A stretch of DNA of 34,835 nucleotides from Pseudomonadota bacterium (GTDB taxonomy: Bacteria > Pseudomonadota > Gammaproteobacteria > Acidiferrobacterales > UBA6901), in contig JAJYEE010000025.1 in assembly GCA_021790335.1 (NCBI GenBank), positions 1 to 34,835 on the forward strand, read 5' to 3'. Position 1 is the first letter of the stretch; each line of letters starts with the position of its first letter. A program made the position numbers and the translations under genes. Shown piece after piece: positions 20,344 to 24,846 of this stretch. Below the pieces are notes generated by a model. It was given only the letters and a program-made list of their open reading frames with translations. It was not told the origin of the DNA and searched no databases.

Positions 20344-20388
20344 CCTAGGAATCCTAGGCTTCTTGCGCCAGGCTCCCCGCCGGGGAGC
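20344..20388 (+). promoter_or_regulatory. Two hairpins before the phosphoesterase ribosome site
   Basis: CCTAGG-AAT-CCTAGG (20344-20358) is both a direct and an inverted repeat. GCTCCCC/GGGGAGC (20372-20378 with 20382-20388) is a 7-bp stem ending 10 nt before AAGGAG. They could affect mRNA stability or access to the ribosome site; neither has a T run. Confidence 0.3.
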
Positions 20389-20410
20389 GATCCGCACAAG
20401 GAGCATCGCG

Positions 20411-22309
20411 ATGGACATCCAAACCAGAAAGTGGGCCCAGATAGCCGCGGTCAGCGCGGCAATCGCGGGCCTGTTGAACATGCAGCTGCTGTACGCCGGT
20501 GACTACGATCGCAACGACAACGCCACAACCACCCCGATCAAGCACGTGATCCTGATCATCGGCGAGAACCGCAGCTTCGATCACGTCTTCGGTACCTTCA
20601 AGCCCAACCCTGGCCAGACCGTATGGAATCTCCTCTCCGAGGGCATCGTCAACGCCGATGGCACGCCCGGACCGAATTTCGCCCGCGCCAGGCAATGGCA
20701 GGCGAGTGATACCGGCAGCTATTCCATTCACCCGCCGAAGAGCGCCCCCTACGGCGTGCTGCCGCGAATCAGCCTCGACGGCACACCGGCGCAGGCGCCC
20801 TTCGCCTCGGCCAGTGCGGCCGAGGCCGTGGAGCCCGCGCTGCCGTCCGACGCCTATGGCCTGCTGACCATCGGCGGCAGCGGGCTGGCGTCCGGGACGC
20901 TGGTCGACCCCAGGTTTCCGGCCGGTCTCGCGAACGGCCCCTATGACATTACCCGCTATCTGTCCTACAACGACTATACGGCAAGCCCGGTGCACCGCTT
21001 CTTCCAGATGTGGCAGCAGACCGACTGCGATATTTCCCGCGCGAGCGCGCGCAACCCGAGCGGCTGCCAGAACGACCTTTTCCCCTGGGTCGAGGCGACA
21101 GTCGGCGCCGGCAGCAACGGCCGCCCGCAACCGGCTGGCTACGGCGAGGACGGGCACCACGAAGGCGCCATCGCCATGGGCTTTTACAATATGCAGGCCG
21201 GGGATGTGCGCTACTTCGATAAGCTCGCCCACAAATACGCCCTGAGCGACAACTACCATCAGGCGGTGATGGGCGGCACCGGTGCGAACCACATTGCCAT
21301 CGGCTACGGCACCGCAATTTATTACGCTGGTGCGAACGGCCAGCCCGCCGTGCCCCCGGCCAACCAGATCGAGAATCCGGCGGCACAGCCGGGTACCAAC
21401 AACTTCTACGTGCAGGACGGCTACGGCGGGGGATCGTATGTCGATTGTTCCGACGATACCCAGCCCGGCGTCAGTTCGATCAACGGCTACCTGCACACGC
21501 TGCCGTATCCCGTGTTCCGCAACGGCGACTGCCGGCGCGGCGCTTATTATCTCGTCAACAACTACGCTCCAGGATATCTCGGCACCGGCGCCCCGGCGCC
21601 GCTCGGGGCGACGCAGTTCACGGTGCCCCCGAGCCGCCAGCCGAACCTCGGCCTGCTGCTCTCGCGGCATCACATCCCCTGGGGTTACTACGGTGAGGGC
21701 TGGAACGGCGGCACGGAGGGCGGGGAGAACGGCAGCTACTGCAACATCTGCGACCCGTTTCTCTACTCGACGCAGATCATGACCAACCCGAAGCTGCGGG
21801 CGAACCTGCACGGCATCCGCGACCTTTATGCCGCAATCCGGGGCGGCACGCTGCCGGCGGTATCGATCGTCAAGCCCGATGGCTACCTCGATGGCCATCC
21901 GGCTTCTTCGAAGTTCGAGCTGTTCGAGGCCTTCAGCCGCAAGATCATCGATATGGTCAAGGCCAATCCTGCGCTGTGGAAAGATACGGCCATCATGATC
22001 ACCGTCGATGAGGGTGGCGGGTACTACGACTCCGGCTACATCCAGCCGATCGACTTCTTCGGTGACGGCACGCGCATTCCGCTGCTCGTCGTGTCGCGCT
22101 ATTCACGCGGTGTTGGCGTGGTCCACACCTATGCCGATCACGTCTCGTTCGACAAGTTCGTGGAGGCCAACTGGGAGTTGCCGACGATCTCGGCACGCAG
22201 CCGCGACAACCTGCCGGACCCCGTCACCACCCGGGGCAACCCCTATGTGCCGATCAACAGCCCGGCGATCGGCGATCTTATGACCATGTTCCATTTCGAT
22301 CGCAACTGA
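20411..22309 (+). CDS. Secreted phosphoesterase (phospholipase C / acid phosphatase family)
   Basis: The 632-residue product starts with a signal-like segment (WAQIAAVSAAIAGLLNMQLLYA, likely cut near residue 29), so it is exported. The family signature follows at once: IKHVILIIGENRSFDHVFG (~43-61), in which Glu52, Asn53 and Asp57 help to build the metal site. Later motifs TVDEGGGYYDSG and YADHVSFDKFVEANW supply further ligands. Members (PF04185) hydrolyse phosphomonoesters or phospholipids. Four Cys in the middle and CNICD may form periplasmic disulfides. The ATG at 20411 follows AAGGAG (20399-20404). A long antisense frame across this gene is a GC artefact. Confidence 0.92.
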   Translation: MDIQTRKWAQIAAVSAAIAGLLNMQLLYAGDYDRNDNATTTPIKHVILIIGENRSFDHVFGTFKPNPGQTVWNLLSEGIVNADGTPGPNFARARQWQASDTGSYSIHPPKSAPYGVLPRISLDGTPAQAPFASASAAEAVEPALPSDAYGLLTIGGSGLASGTLVDPRFPAGLANGPYDITRYLSYNDYTASPVHRFFQMWQQTDCDISRASARNPSGCQNDLFPWVEATVGAGSNGRPQPAGYGEDGHHEGAIAMGFYNMQAGDVRYFDKLAHKYALSDNYHQAVMGGTGANHIAIGYGTAIYYAGANGQPAVPPANQIENPAAQPGTNNFYVQDGYGGGSYVDCSDDTQPGVSSINGYLHTLPYPVFRNGDCRRGAYYLVNNYAPGYLGTGAPAPLGATQFTVPPSRQPNLGLLLSRHHIPWGYYGEGWNGGTEGGENGSYCNICDPFLYSTQIMTNPKLRANLHGIRDLYAAIRGGTLPAVSIVKPDGYLDGHPASSKFELFEAFSRKIIDMVKANPALWKDTAIMITVDEGGGYYDSGYIQPIDFFGDGTRIPLLVVSRYSRGVGVVHTYADHVSFDKFVEANWELPTISARSRDNLPDPVTTRGNPYVPINSPAIGDLMTMFHFDRN

Positions 22310-23208: not shown

Positions 23209-23346
23209 CTAGGCGTGGTGGAGCCTGGCGATCCGTGCCACCCTGTTCGGAACGATGTTGGATTCCGAGACGCCGTTCGGTTCGCCGGAAGCGATGTTGC
23301 ATGCGCCGATCCGGCCGGCATACTCCGTCTTGAGCCATTTCTGCAT
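23209..23346 (-). CDS. Possible 45-residue small protein
   Basis: The frame starts MQKWLKTEYAGRIGACN and ends RLHHA, with its stop only ~30 bp before the terminator. A GAGGG lies ~12 nt before the ATG, a weak ribosome site. There is no signal peptide, membrane segment or recognised motif. Its support is position alone: it would fill the otherwise long 3' end of the sigma/anti-sigma message. It may equally be noncoding. Confidence 0.25.
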   Translation of the reverse strand: MQKWLKTEYAGRIGACNIASGEPNGVSESNIVPNRVARIARLHHA

Positions 23347-23438: not shown

Positions 23439-24221
23439 TCAAACCTGAATGTAAATCCATCCCCTCTGTTGCAGGCGGATTATTTGCGCCACGCCCGAAT
23501 CGATCACGGTGGTGCCGGGCAGCAGTTTGGTCGAGATGCCCTCGCCGCCGAAGCGGTCCAGCGTATTCAAGCAGGCCGCGAACTGAAGATTTTTGTACTT
23601 CTTCAGCATCGACCTGATGCGCGCGGGGTAGGGCGAGCGGCCGGCAAGAAGCAGGTTAAGCCCATCACCGTTGGTGATGACCTCCACACGCGCCTTCTGA
23701 TGCTTGCGCTGGTAAAGATTGAGCAGATTCTGGGTTTCATCCAGCACTTCTTTCATGTGTGCCGGATTGCCGCTGTTCAGGTGAAAGAGGACCTTGATTA
23801 CCTGACCGCCGGGCGTCGCCGCGCTCGCTATCTGCTTCGCGGAGGCAGGATTTCCCTCCATTCCCGCCGGTGCCGTCAGTGCCACGGCGGTGCTGCCCGC
23901 AGTCAGGCCGAAGCTGCCGCTATCCTGCTGCAAGCTGCCCGCCAGCGCCAGAATGCCCAGGATTGCCCCCGCGCTGGCGCCCAACTTGTGCCGTAGCGGG
24001 GTAGGGCGATTGGTCTTGGGTGGCGCACCGGTCGGAGCCTCCGGAGGGTTTTTGTACGCCATTTGCACGAGATCCCGTACCTTGCGCAGTTCGCACACCC
24101 GGCGGTTTATCGCCTCGTCTTTGCCGGTCACGCTGTACATGCGGCTCTTTTCATCGAGCGCCAGCTGATCGTCGACGAACGCGTTCAGGTATTCATCGGA
24201 AAACGTTCCTTCATCCCTCAT
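23439..24221 (-). CDS. Membrane anti-sigma factor fused to a DsrE-like domain
   Basis: The 260-residue product has three parts. Residues 1-60 (FSDEYLNAFVDDQL..) resemble the sigma-binding N-terminus of RsiW/RseA-type anti-sigma factors but lack the HxxxCxxC zinc motif. Residues ~78-98 (HKLGASAGAILGILALAGSL) are one membrane helix. Residues ~140-260 are a DsrE/DsrF-like domain: VIKVLFHLNSGNPAHMKEVL, VITNGDGLNLLL, FAACLNTL (Cys217 at the family's usual Cys position), LLPGTTVIDSGVAQIIRLQ and the terminal GWIYIQV. DsrE folds act in sulfur relay. With the usual topology the domain would be periplasmic. The ATG at 24219-24221, after AAGGAG, overlaps the sigma gene's TGA (ATGA). Confidence 0.85.
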   Translation of the reverse strand: MRDEGTFSDEYLNAFVDDQLALDEKSRMYSVTGKDEAINRRVCELRKVRDLVQMAYKNPPEAPTGAPPKTNRPTPLRHKLGASAGAILGILALAGSLQQDSGSFGLTAGSTAVALTAPAGMEGNPASAKQIASAATPGGQVIKVLFHLNSGNPAHMKEVLDETQNLLNLYQRKHQKARVEVITNGDGLNLLLAGRSPYPARIRSMLKKYKNLQFAACLNTLDRFGGEGISTKLLPGTTVIDSGVAQIIRLQQRGWIYIQV

Positions 24222-24790
24222 TTTATTCTCCTTATGTTGGCTTCCTGCCGGACTGCGGCCGTCTTGGACGCTTCCTGGTTTCCGAACTCGGTAGCGAGCA
24301 GGCGCAGCATGGCGTTGCGCGCGCGGCATAGGCGGCTCATGACGGTTCCGATGGGAATGTCCAATACTTTGGCGACTTCGACGTAGGAGAAGCCTTCGAG
24401 ATCAACGAGCGTGATAACCTGACGCTGTCCTTCCGGAAGCCGCGCGATGGTCGCGCGCACCTTGCGGACGATTTCCAGCTGGTTGTTCTCGGTTTCGGGG
24501 GTGGAGTCGTGCGGCAACTCCATTTCGTCGATATCGTCCATCTCCCGATGGCGCCGGAAGTGATCCCGGTAGCAGTTGGTCAGGATGCTGAAAAGCCAGG
24601 CGTCACGCGCTTTCGGATCGCGTAGCTGCGCAGATTTTTGCATTGCCTTGGTCAGGGTCTCTTGCACCAGATCATCCGCCAGCGCGCGATTGTGACACCA
24701 CGCATAAGCCATGCGGTAGAGACGGGCTCGGCTCTGTTCCAGCGCGTCTTCAACACCCTTGGTCTGGCCGAATAATTTGAGAAAGTCCAT
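24218..24790 (-). CDS. ECF (RpoE-like) RNA polymerase sigma factor
   Basis: The 190-residue product has region 2 (LYRMAYAWCHNRALADDLVQ.TLTKA, ~25-50; RDAWLFSILTNCYRDHFRR, ~62-80) and region 4 (LPEGQRQVITLVDLEGFSYVEVAKVLDIPIGTVMSRLCRAR, ~118-160), with no region 3, as expected of an ECF sigma factor. It directs RNA polymerase to a small regulon and should be held by the membrane anti-sigma encoded next. The start at 24788-24790 follows a weak ribosome site. A GGAATA/CGTC element upstream suggests it transcribes its own operon. Confidence 0.93.
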   Translation of the reverse strand: MDFLKLFGQTKGVEDALEQSRARLYRMAYAWCHNRALADDLVQETLTKAMQKSAQLRDPKARDAWLFSILTNCYRDHFRRHREMDDIDEMELPHDSTPETENNQLEIVRKVRATIARLPEGQRQVITLVDLEGFSYVEVAKVLDIPIGTVMSRLCRARNAMLRLLATEFGNQEASKTAAVRQEANIRRIK

Positions 24791-24820
24791 TCGTTTTGCT
24801 CGAGGTTGTTAACCGTAAAG

Positions 24821-24846
24821 GACGACACTAGCCATTATTTTATTCC
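24821..24846 (-). promoter_or_regulatory. Candidate ECF-type autoregulatory promoter
   Basis: On the minus strand GGAATA (24841-24846) is followed after 16 bp by CGTC (24821-24824). This GGAAT-N16-CGTC layout is the general form of many ECF sigma promoters, and it lies 31-56 bp upstream of the sigma gene start. The pairing with this sigma factor is inferred from position. Confidence 0.5.

Follow-up and report, generated by a model that had tools for sequence, protein, structure and literature searches.

The closest described relatives of the system reported here are the extracytoplasmic function (ECF) sigma factors of group ECF26, namely RpoE1, RpoE4 and RpoE6 of Sinorhizobium meliloti with their EcfR anti-sigma factors, and SigE of Starkeya novella (PMC3511301, PMC6180224, PMC6527743). 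In these pairs the sigma factor gene is followed by an anti-sigma factor gene whose product comprises N-terminal anti-sigma, membrane and periplasmic C-terminal domains, and the promoters carry −35 GGAATA and −10 CGTC/GT elements (PMC6180224, PMC6527743). The sulfur targets reported for them are enzymes that oxidise sulfite and do not include sox, and the discussion of PMC6527743 leaves open by what step the anti-sigma factors of this group perceive sulfite. In the current study, we describe a gene pair of the same layout and promoter type in a stretch of 34,835 nucleotides (the window; contig JAJYEE010000025.1) from a gammaproteobacterium of the order Acidiferrobacterales, in which the anti-sigma factor ends in a domain of predicted DsrE fold and the candidate targets include sox genes. 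Our reading, to which we assign a probability of roughly 0.7, is that the pair constitutes a sigma/anti-sigma switch with a periplasmic DsrE-type sulfur sensor that turns on Sox sulfur oxidation; the ECF26 pairs respond to sulfite, whereas the link to sulfur in the present case is one that we infer. Since many sulfur-oxidising bacteria carry the pair, and thiosulfate-oxidation genes are often preceded by its promoter, it probably signals reduced sulfur outside the cell.

Two further systems are relevant for comparison. In Arcobacter, ECF sigma-2 of A. butzleri raises sox expression, and ECF activity there raises sox transcription and sulfur oxidation (PMC3445524), so that an ECF influence on sox has precedent; the Arcobacter ECF regulons are broad with opposite effects, and the main text mentions neither promoter, consensus nor DsrE. 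In Hyphomicrobium denitrificans, the repressors SoxR and sHdrR act with YeeE-like SoxT proteins (PMC11582611, PMC10451225, PMC12423496), and signalling to SoxR requires SoxT1B, a YeeE-like protein (PMC11582611). This system shares with the present one a sulfur-responsive control of sulfur oxidation and the involvement of a YeeE-like protein, but SoxR is a transcriptional repressor, whereas the presumed sensor described here is extracytoplasmic and carried on an anti-sigma factor. The sensing of external sulfur by the regulators of sulfur oxidisers has been called poorly understood (PMC11582611).

A DsrE-fused anti-sigma factor was not found in the literature searched, the coverage of which excludes most subscription journals; passages of PMC10512742, PMC2147049, PMC2864759 and PMC7451513 contain nothing on such a fusion, and a literature search for GGAATAAA together with ECF returned no paper. 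The original prediction, made from the sequence without database searches, had stated that no described system was known to carry this fusion, and this part of its claim stands within the reach of these searches; sigma factors of group ECF26 that share the promoter consensus and respond to sulfite had, however, been described (PMC6527743, PMC3511301, PMC6180224). The sensor domain and the regulon therefore look new, since no DsrE-bearing anti-sigma factor was found, whereas the ECF26 kind of sigma factor and an ECF effect on sox were already known.

The sigma factor gene (24218-24790, minus strand) encodes 190 aa and overlaps the anti-sigma factor gene (23439-24221, minus strand; 260 aa) by four bases in an ATGA. 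The predicted coupling of the two genes was correct, as were its coordinates: an overlap of −4 occurs in 22 of the 23 loci of the order in which it was measured (the window's included), the remaining locus having +2. The sigma protein contains only regions 2 and 4 (Pfam Sigma70_r2, E 4.2e-12, 46.1 bits; r4_2, E 5.5e-17, 61.6 bits) and scores 80.2 bits against TIGR02937 (cut-off 42.9), and is an ECF (group IV sigma-70) factor on these grounds. It is tentatively read as ECF26-like from its promoter consensus and from its best matches among plasmid-borne sequences only: 41% to a Caballeronia sigma factor and, over residues 2-185, 38% identity to a sigma gene on pSymA of S. meliloti 1021. The latter record is unannotated and the gene is taken to be rpoE6, RpoE6 being an ECF26 member located on pSymA (PMC6180224). 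The open reading frame (ORF) beside this pSymA gene contains no DsrE-like sequence, as judged by eye.

The C-terminal domain of the anti-sigma protein (residues 141-260; 23442-23801, minus strand), which scores below the cut-off of the Pfam DsrE model (18.8 versus 22.7 bits, E 0.0019), was modelled with AlphaFold2 from an alignment of 30 proteins of the order and obtained a pLDDT of about 95. Structure and profile searches were decisive for its classification. The best match in the PDB is MTH1491 (Foldseek E 5.5e-9; VIA Z 18.6, rmsd 1.5 over 110 residues), followed in the VIA comparison by Escherichia coli YchN (Z 14.2), TusBCD chain A (12.7) and DsrEFH chain A (12.6), and the ten best chains are all DsrE-like (Z 18.6 to 12.0), the next match, a non-DsrE chain, reaching 7.2. 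A profile search recovered MTH1491 at E 6.7e-17 with its cysteine aligned to Cys217 of the query, an alignment that is also found for ST0148. On the predicted fold and the conserved cysteine, residues 141-260 belong to the DsrE/F-like superfamily, and the DsrE-like character originally proposed for this region is upheld by the model. MTH1491/ST0148, YchN, DsrEFH and TusBCD share this fold, and the first two the aligned cysteine, but their solved chains lack a membrane anti-sigma part. The periplasmic domain of the ECF26 anti-sigma factors has some similarity to RsiW in the published descriptions, whereas a DsrE fold rather than an RsiW-like domain is predicted here.

Upstream of this domain the putative membrane anti-sigma factor is organised as had been foreseen, with an N-terminus devoid of a zinc motif, one membrane helix and Cys217 within FAACLNTL. 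Residues 1-57 (24051-24221, minus strand) are predicted to form a three-helix, anti-sigma-like domain (helices at residues 9-16, 22-34 and 36-57). The HxxxCxxC motif is absent from residues 1-60 on reading the translation, and the aligned region has one invariant cysteine, so that the zinc anti-sigma (ZAS) type was rejected. RseA, RskA, ChrR and RsiW carry other sensor domains. With these class I (ASD) anti-sigma factors (PMC7406223) the present protein would share a helical, sigma-binding N-terminal region; the model matches RskA (4nqw) weakly (Z 5.1, rmsd 10.2), neither Pfam nor NCBIfam returned an anti-sigma match to the 260-aa protein, and in 30/30 loci of the order the segment coding for residues 1-60 comes immediately after the sigma gene. 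The single hydrophobic stretch, residues 80-98 (23928-23984, minus strand), has a mean hydropathy of 1.59 and is preceded by positive charge; the mean is at least 1.6 in 27 of the 30 order proteins, and the charge is more positive before than after the helix in 26 of them. Based on this hydropathy and charge pattern, the N-terminus is presumed to lie in the cytosol and the DsrE domain in the periplasm. A poorly ordered linker lies between the helix and the DsrE domain, and residues 79-138 have a pLDDT below 50 in the model.

Cys217 (codon 23571-23573, minus strand) is the sole cysteine after the membrane helix, and exactly one cysteine follows the helix in 30/30 order proteins, so that no disulfide partner is available within the DsrE domain. 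Both Cys217 and Cys43 (codon 24093-24095, minus strand), the latter unmentioned in the original prediction, are invariant in these 30 proteins. A set of 48 distinct full-length fusions, taken from class-wide and re-fetched loci and including some of the order, has the DsrE cysteine in 48/48 and Cys43 in 38/48; Cys43 as a required partner of Cys217 was therefore rejected as a general rule.

An ECF-type promoter element, GGAATAAAATAATGGCTAGTGTCGTC, is located at 24821-24846 (minus strand), 30 bp ahead of the sigma ATG, and has the form GGAATAAA-N14-CGTC. No other GGAATA-N15..17-CGTC occurs in the window, while the window's genome has 14 GGAATA-N16-CGTC sites versus three of the reversed pattern. 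Footprinting of the orthologous place recovered the element before the sigma gene in 30/30 order loci, as GGAATA-N16-CGTC in 28 and with N15 in two, which in terms of conservation agrees with the ECF26 promoter (−35 GGAATA, −10 GT/CGTC). Across the class, the best site upstream of the sigma gene reads GGAAT...CGTC in 27/33 loci, or in 23/29 when four loci of the order are set aside, and the 57 genomes of the order contain 129 copies of the strict form, GGAATAAA-N13/14-CGTC, versus 22 of the reversed pattern. Autoregulation of the sigma operon, which had been proposed from the single site, is thus strongly supported by conservation of the element, which would be read by this sigma factor itself.

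The genome-wide scan yielded a candidate regulon, which is new in this analysis. In the window's genome, the element lies 110 bp before soxB (TIGR04486, 853 bits, cut-off 550), 82 bp before the gene of a YeeE/YedE-type transporter (PF04143, 238 bits; below the TsuA model cut-offs), 141 or 156 bp before a secreted DsrE gene (spacer N17) and 226 bp before a porin gene (N16). The site of the secreted DsrE gene, with its spacer one base longer, is kept in 5/5 genomes of the genus and that of the porin in 4/5. Two genomes of the genus (G002 and G004) carry, 51-60 bp after an element, a DsrE gene with a twin-arginine (Tat)-like signal followed by msrQ, with msrP between the two genes in G002, and in G001 the element lies 52 bp ahead of the same DsrE gene. 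In three genomes from another family of the order (G005, G007, G018), a strict site precedes a DsrE gene with a Tat-like signal by 29-30 bp; two of the three proteins were tested (G005 and G007) and score above the PF02635 cut-off. Class-wide, the element is the best site before 9 of 12 secreted DsrE genes located near the pair on the opposite strand.

Counts over many genomes point in the same direction. In a same-strand window reaching 400 bp upstream, the strict element occurs before 5/50 soxB genes (about 0.009 expected) and before 12/40 long PF04143 genes (about 0.007 expected), with one more of the latter on the opposite strand; the 50 soxB rows are those with the N-terminal part, a partial row from G020 replacing that of G027, where the start is missing, and the 40 PF04143 genes are the best rows. 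With the relaxed form GGAAT-N16/17-CGTC, a site lies within 200 bp of soxB in the sense orientation in 35/49 windows of the order and in the antisense orientation in 0/49 (G015 and G027 being left out, and G010 added with 27 bases upstream only). In the same loci, 7/436 other ORFs of at least 200 residues are preceded by such a site; the transporter is one example of the genuine targets that may be among them. A position-weight scan of the sox loci, trained on 30 autoregulatory sites, gave one shuffled control at 20.4, the remaining controls among the ten highest shown scoring 14.5 or less; on account of this control we rely on the counted windows. Five short ORFs situated 95-255 bp downstream of an element in sox loci were tested, and all of them are SoxX above cut-off. 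The reduced-sulfur link, originally a guess from the DsrE domain, thereby gains independent support from elements before soxB, soxX, YeeE/YedE-type transporter and secreted DsrE genes, and the candidate regulon, as deduced from promoters, would comprise the pair's own operon together with these genes, porins and MsrPQ.

Several observations were made beside these counts. In L172 (1752-4062), a DsrE gene with a Tat-like signal heads an msrP/msrQ operon (periplasmic methionine sulfoxide repair) with a sigma-type promoter 60 bp upstream. A YeiH-like putative sulfate exporter is encoded about 146-149 bp after a strict promoter in two genomes (L233 2075-3854, L236 1840-3601), the L233 protein scoring 164 bits against PF03601 and 80 bits against TIGR00698, below its cut-off of 232.6, and a secreted thioredoxin-like protein (L235 2757-3368; PF13098, E 5e-12) is encoded 82 bp after a strict site. 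In L075, L078, L080, L081, L084 and L093, genes for a secreted DsrE protein and, next, a Porin_O_P-like outer-membrane porin are divergent from the sigma/anti-sigma pair. Such DsrE-porin neighbours suggest an outer-membrane route for sulfur compounds.

Within the order, the element was found before 0/5 soxB genes of four genomes without the fusion versus 35/44 with it (p 0.001), or 35/40 (p 2e-4) after three second soxB copies and one 27-base window are dropped. In a hand-chosen sample outside the order (20 of 48 fusion-bearing and 20 of 70 other SoxB genomes), the element lies within 320 bp of soxB in 7/20 fusion genomes versus 0/20 others (p 0.008), one of the latter having a relaxed GGAAT...CATC site; combining order and class, the element precedes 0/25 soxB genes in genomes where no fusion was detected. 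SoxB itself is found in 52/66 fusion genomes versus 70/303 others (odds ratio 12, p 3e-17, phylogeny uncorrected). These frequencies bear on the idea that the pair is a general envelope-stress switch, its DsrE domain a structural relic and the sox promoters either chance resemblances or sites read by another sigma factor. Porins among the candidate targets and the 14/66 fusion genomes without SoxB would fit such an idea, but element frequencies far above chance with controls at or near zero, the invariant DsrE cysteine and, within the limit just given, the SoxB association make it very improbable.

The same data set contains points that count against a Sox-activating sulfur switch. Besides the 14/66 fusion genomes without SoxB, 13/20 soxB genes in fusion genomes outside the order have no element within 320 bp, so that sox is not a target everywhere, or not through its nearest promoter, and 9/44 soxB windows of fusion-bearing order genomes lack the element, five of them belonging to main copies and three to second copies, the last being the 27-base window. 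Cys43 is missing in 10/48 relatives, and the adjacent secreted DsrE gene has seemingly been lost from the window's genome. Absence of the fusion is threshold-dependent (1e-12 in the order, 1e-15 in the class, where up to seven candidates per genome were scored) and was partly judged in incomplete genomes. Another ECF26-type sigma factor could also read the same promoters.

Finally, the signal may be sulfite rather than sulfane sulfur, since the ECF26 relatives in S. meliloti and St. novella, which share the −35 GGAAT and −10 CGTC consensus, respond to sulfite (PMC6527743). In this alternative, sulfite or oxidative damage by sulfur oxyanions would be the stimulus, as with the ECF26 pairs RpoE4 and SigE, sulfite reacting with Cys217 or its persulfide, and the output would be a detoxification response. 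It would accommodate MsrPQ in a DsrE-headed operon carrying the element, and the YeiH-like putative sulfate export protein preceded by it in two genomes (the one tested being below its model cut-off). The candidate targets, however, are soxB, soxX and YeeE/YedE-type transporters (no search was aimed at sulfite dehydrogenase genes), the sensor domain shares the fold of sulfane-sulfur carriers, and the anti-sigma ORF next to the presumed rpoE6 of pSymA ends in unlike sequence, as judged by eye. ECF26 precedent thus favours sulfite and the DsrE fold favours sulfane sulfur, and on balance we regard sulfite as an unlikely signal.

For the switch responding to sulfane sulfur, the steps that we infer, including sigma/anti-sigma binding, topology, ligand, release and promoter reading, could be ordered as follows. 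The cytosolic N-terminal helices of the anti-sigma factor would hold the ECF sigma factor at the inner membrane, while the periplasmic DsrE domain would accept a sulfur signal on its single invariant cysteine, Cys217. This signal would most likely be sulfane sulfur, in the form of a persulfide or thiosulfonate for which thiosulfate, polysulfide or a loaded carrier is the source, and the domain could receive it without an intermediary or exchange it with the secreted one-cysteine DsrE proteins that belong to the regulon. The anti-sigma factor would then be changed or destabilised, freeing the sigma factor by conformation or proteolysis, and RNA polymerase with the freed sigma factor would transcribe from promoters of the GGAATAAA-N14-CGTC type its own operon, secreted DsrE genes, soxB, soxX and genes for importers of the YeeE/YedE type (SoxT/TsuA-like), joined in some genomes by those for porins and MsrPQ. 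The broader proposal, to which we give even odds, is that a DsrE carrier domain has been turned into a periplasmic receptor whose single cysteine directly senses sulfane sulfur outside the cytosol, or trades it with secreted DsrE carriers, and which through the anti-sigma factor acts as a master switch for Sox oxidation in many lineages of the class. If true, sulfur oxidation could be controlled without sulfur import, in contrast to control by SoxR and similar cytosolic repressors. The proposal provides a testable receptor domain with one candidate cysteine, a promoter and a regulon, and suggests that the many secreted DsrE proteins with one cysteine serve as a sulfur signal or carrier.

Such secreted proteins are frequent companions of the pair. 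In 18/30 order loci the anti-sigma gene is followed by a third ORF, which encodes a DsrE protein, mostly with a signal peptide as judged by eye, and these partners have one cysteine within the last 110 residues in 17/18 cases and none in the remaining one. A secreted DsrE gene follows or faces the pair in many loci, and with a single cysteine in both partners the DsrE domain might be a docking site that is not sulfur-reactive, the secreted DsrE protein of the regulon forming a mixed oligomer with it and thereby controlling the switch. DsrEFH is a mixed hexamer. TusBCD is likewise described as a mixed hexamer in the title of its PDB entry. Docking alone would not require a cysteine, however, whereas that of the anti-sigma DsrE domain is invariant in 48/48 fusions, and the window's genome has seemingly lost the adjacent partner yet kept the switch, though two other standalone DsrE genes remain in it; we therefore consider docking without sulfur chemistry to be doubtful.

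The fusion is present in 5/5 genomes of the genus, and a profile search matched it in 48/57 genomes of the order at E≤1e-12. Among 369 genomes drawn evenly from the class, 90 match at E≤1e-15 and 66 have full-length matches, full-length status being read from the match table. Occurrence in many families led us to reject a chance or assembly accident, which had been raised together with the original prediction. A short-peptide search of genome contigs returned four close relatives only, and a plasmid collection gave DsrE-domain matches only, with no record covering 80% of the query.

Gene order around the pair is well conserved in the order, with the sigma gene directly upstream of the anti-sigma gene in 30/30 loci read, a purN or DUF3108 gene upstream of the sigma gene in 30/30 and, in 22/30, a NUDIX gene in the retrieved part of the downstream flank. 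A probable relic of the third gene, the secreted DsrE protein, is located at 23221-23271 (minus strand) of the window, where tblastn with the secreted DsrE protein of a relative aligned 17 residues at 71% identity (E 2e-4). The nearest relative (L010, about 2400-2753) has a degenerate or strongly diverged copy at the same place (33% over 122 residues), and other relatives have an open secreted DsrE gene there. Two sigma/anti-sigma-DsrE pairs stand in tandem in one genome (L075, 6569-9523), and three full-length paralogues were observed in some class genomes (G136, G187). Near the NUDIX gene of the window, a phosphoesterase-family protein (PF04185, E 6e-45) is encoded at 20363-22309 on the plus strand.

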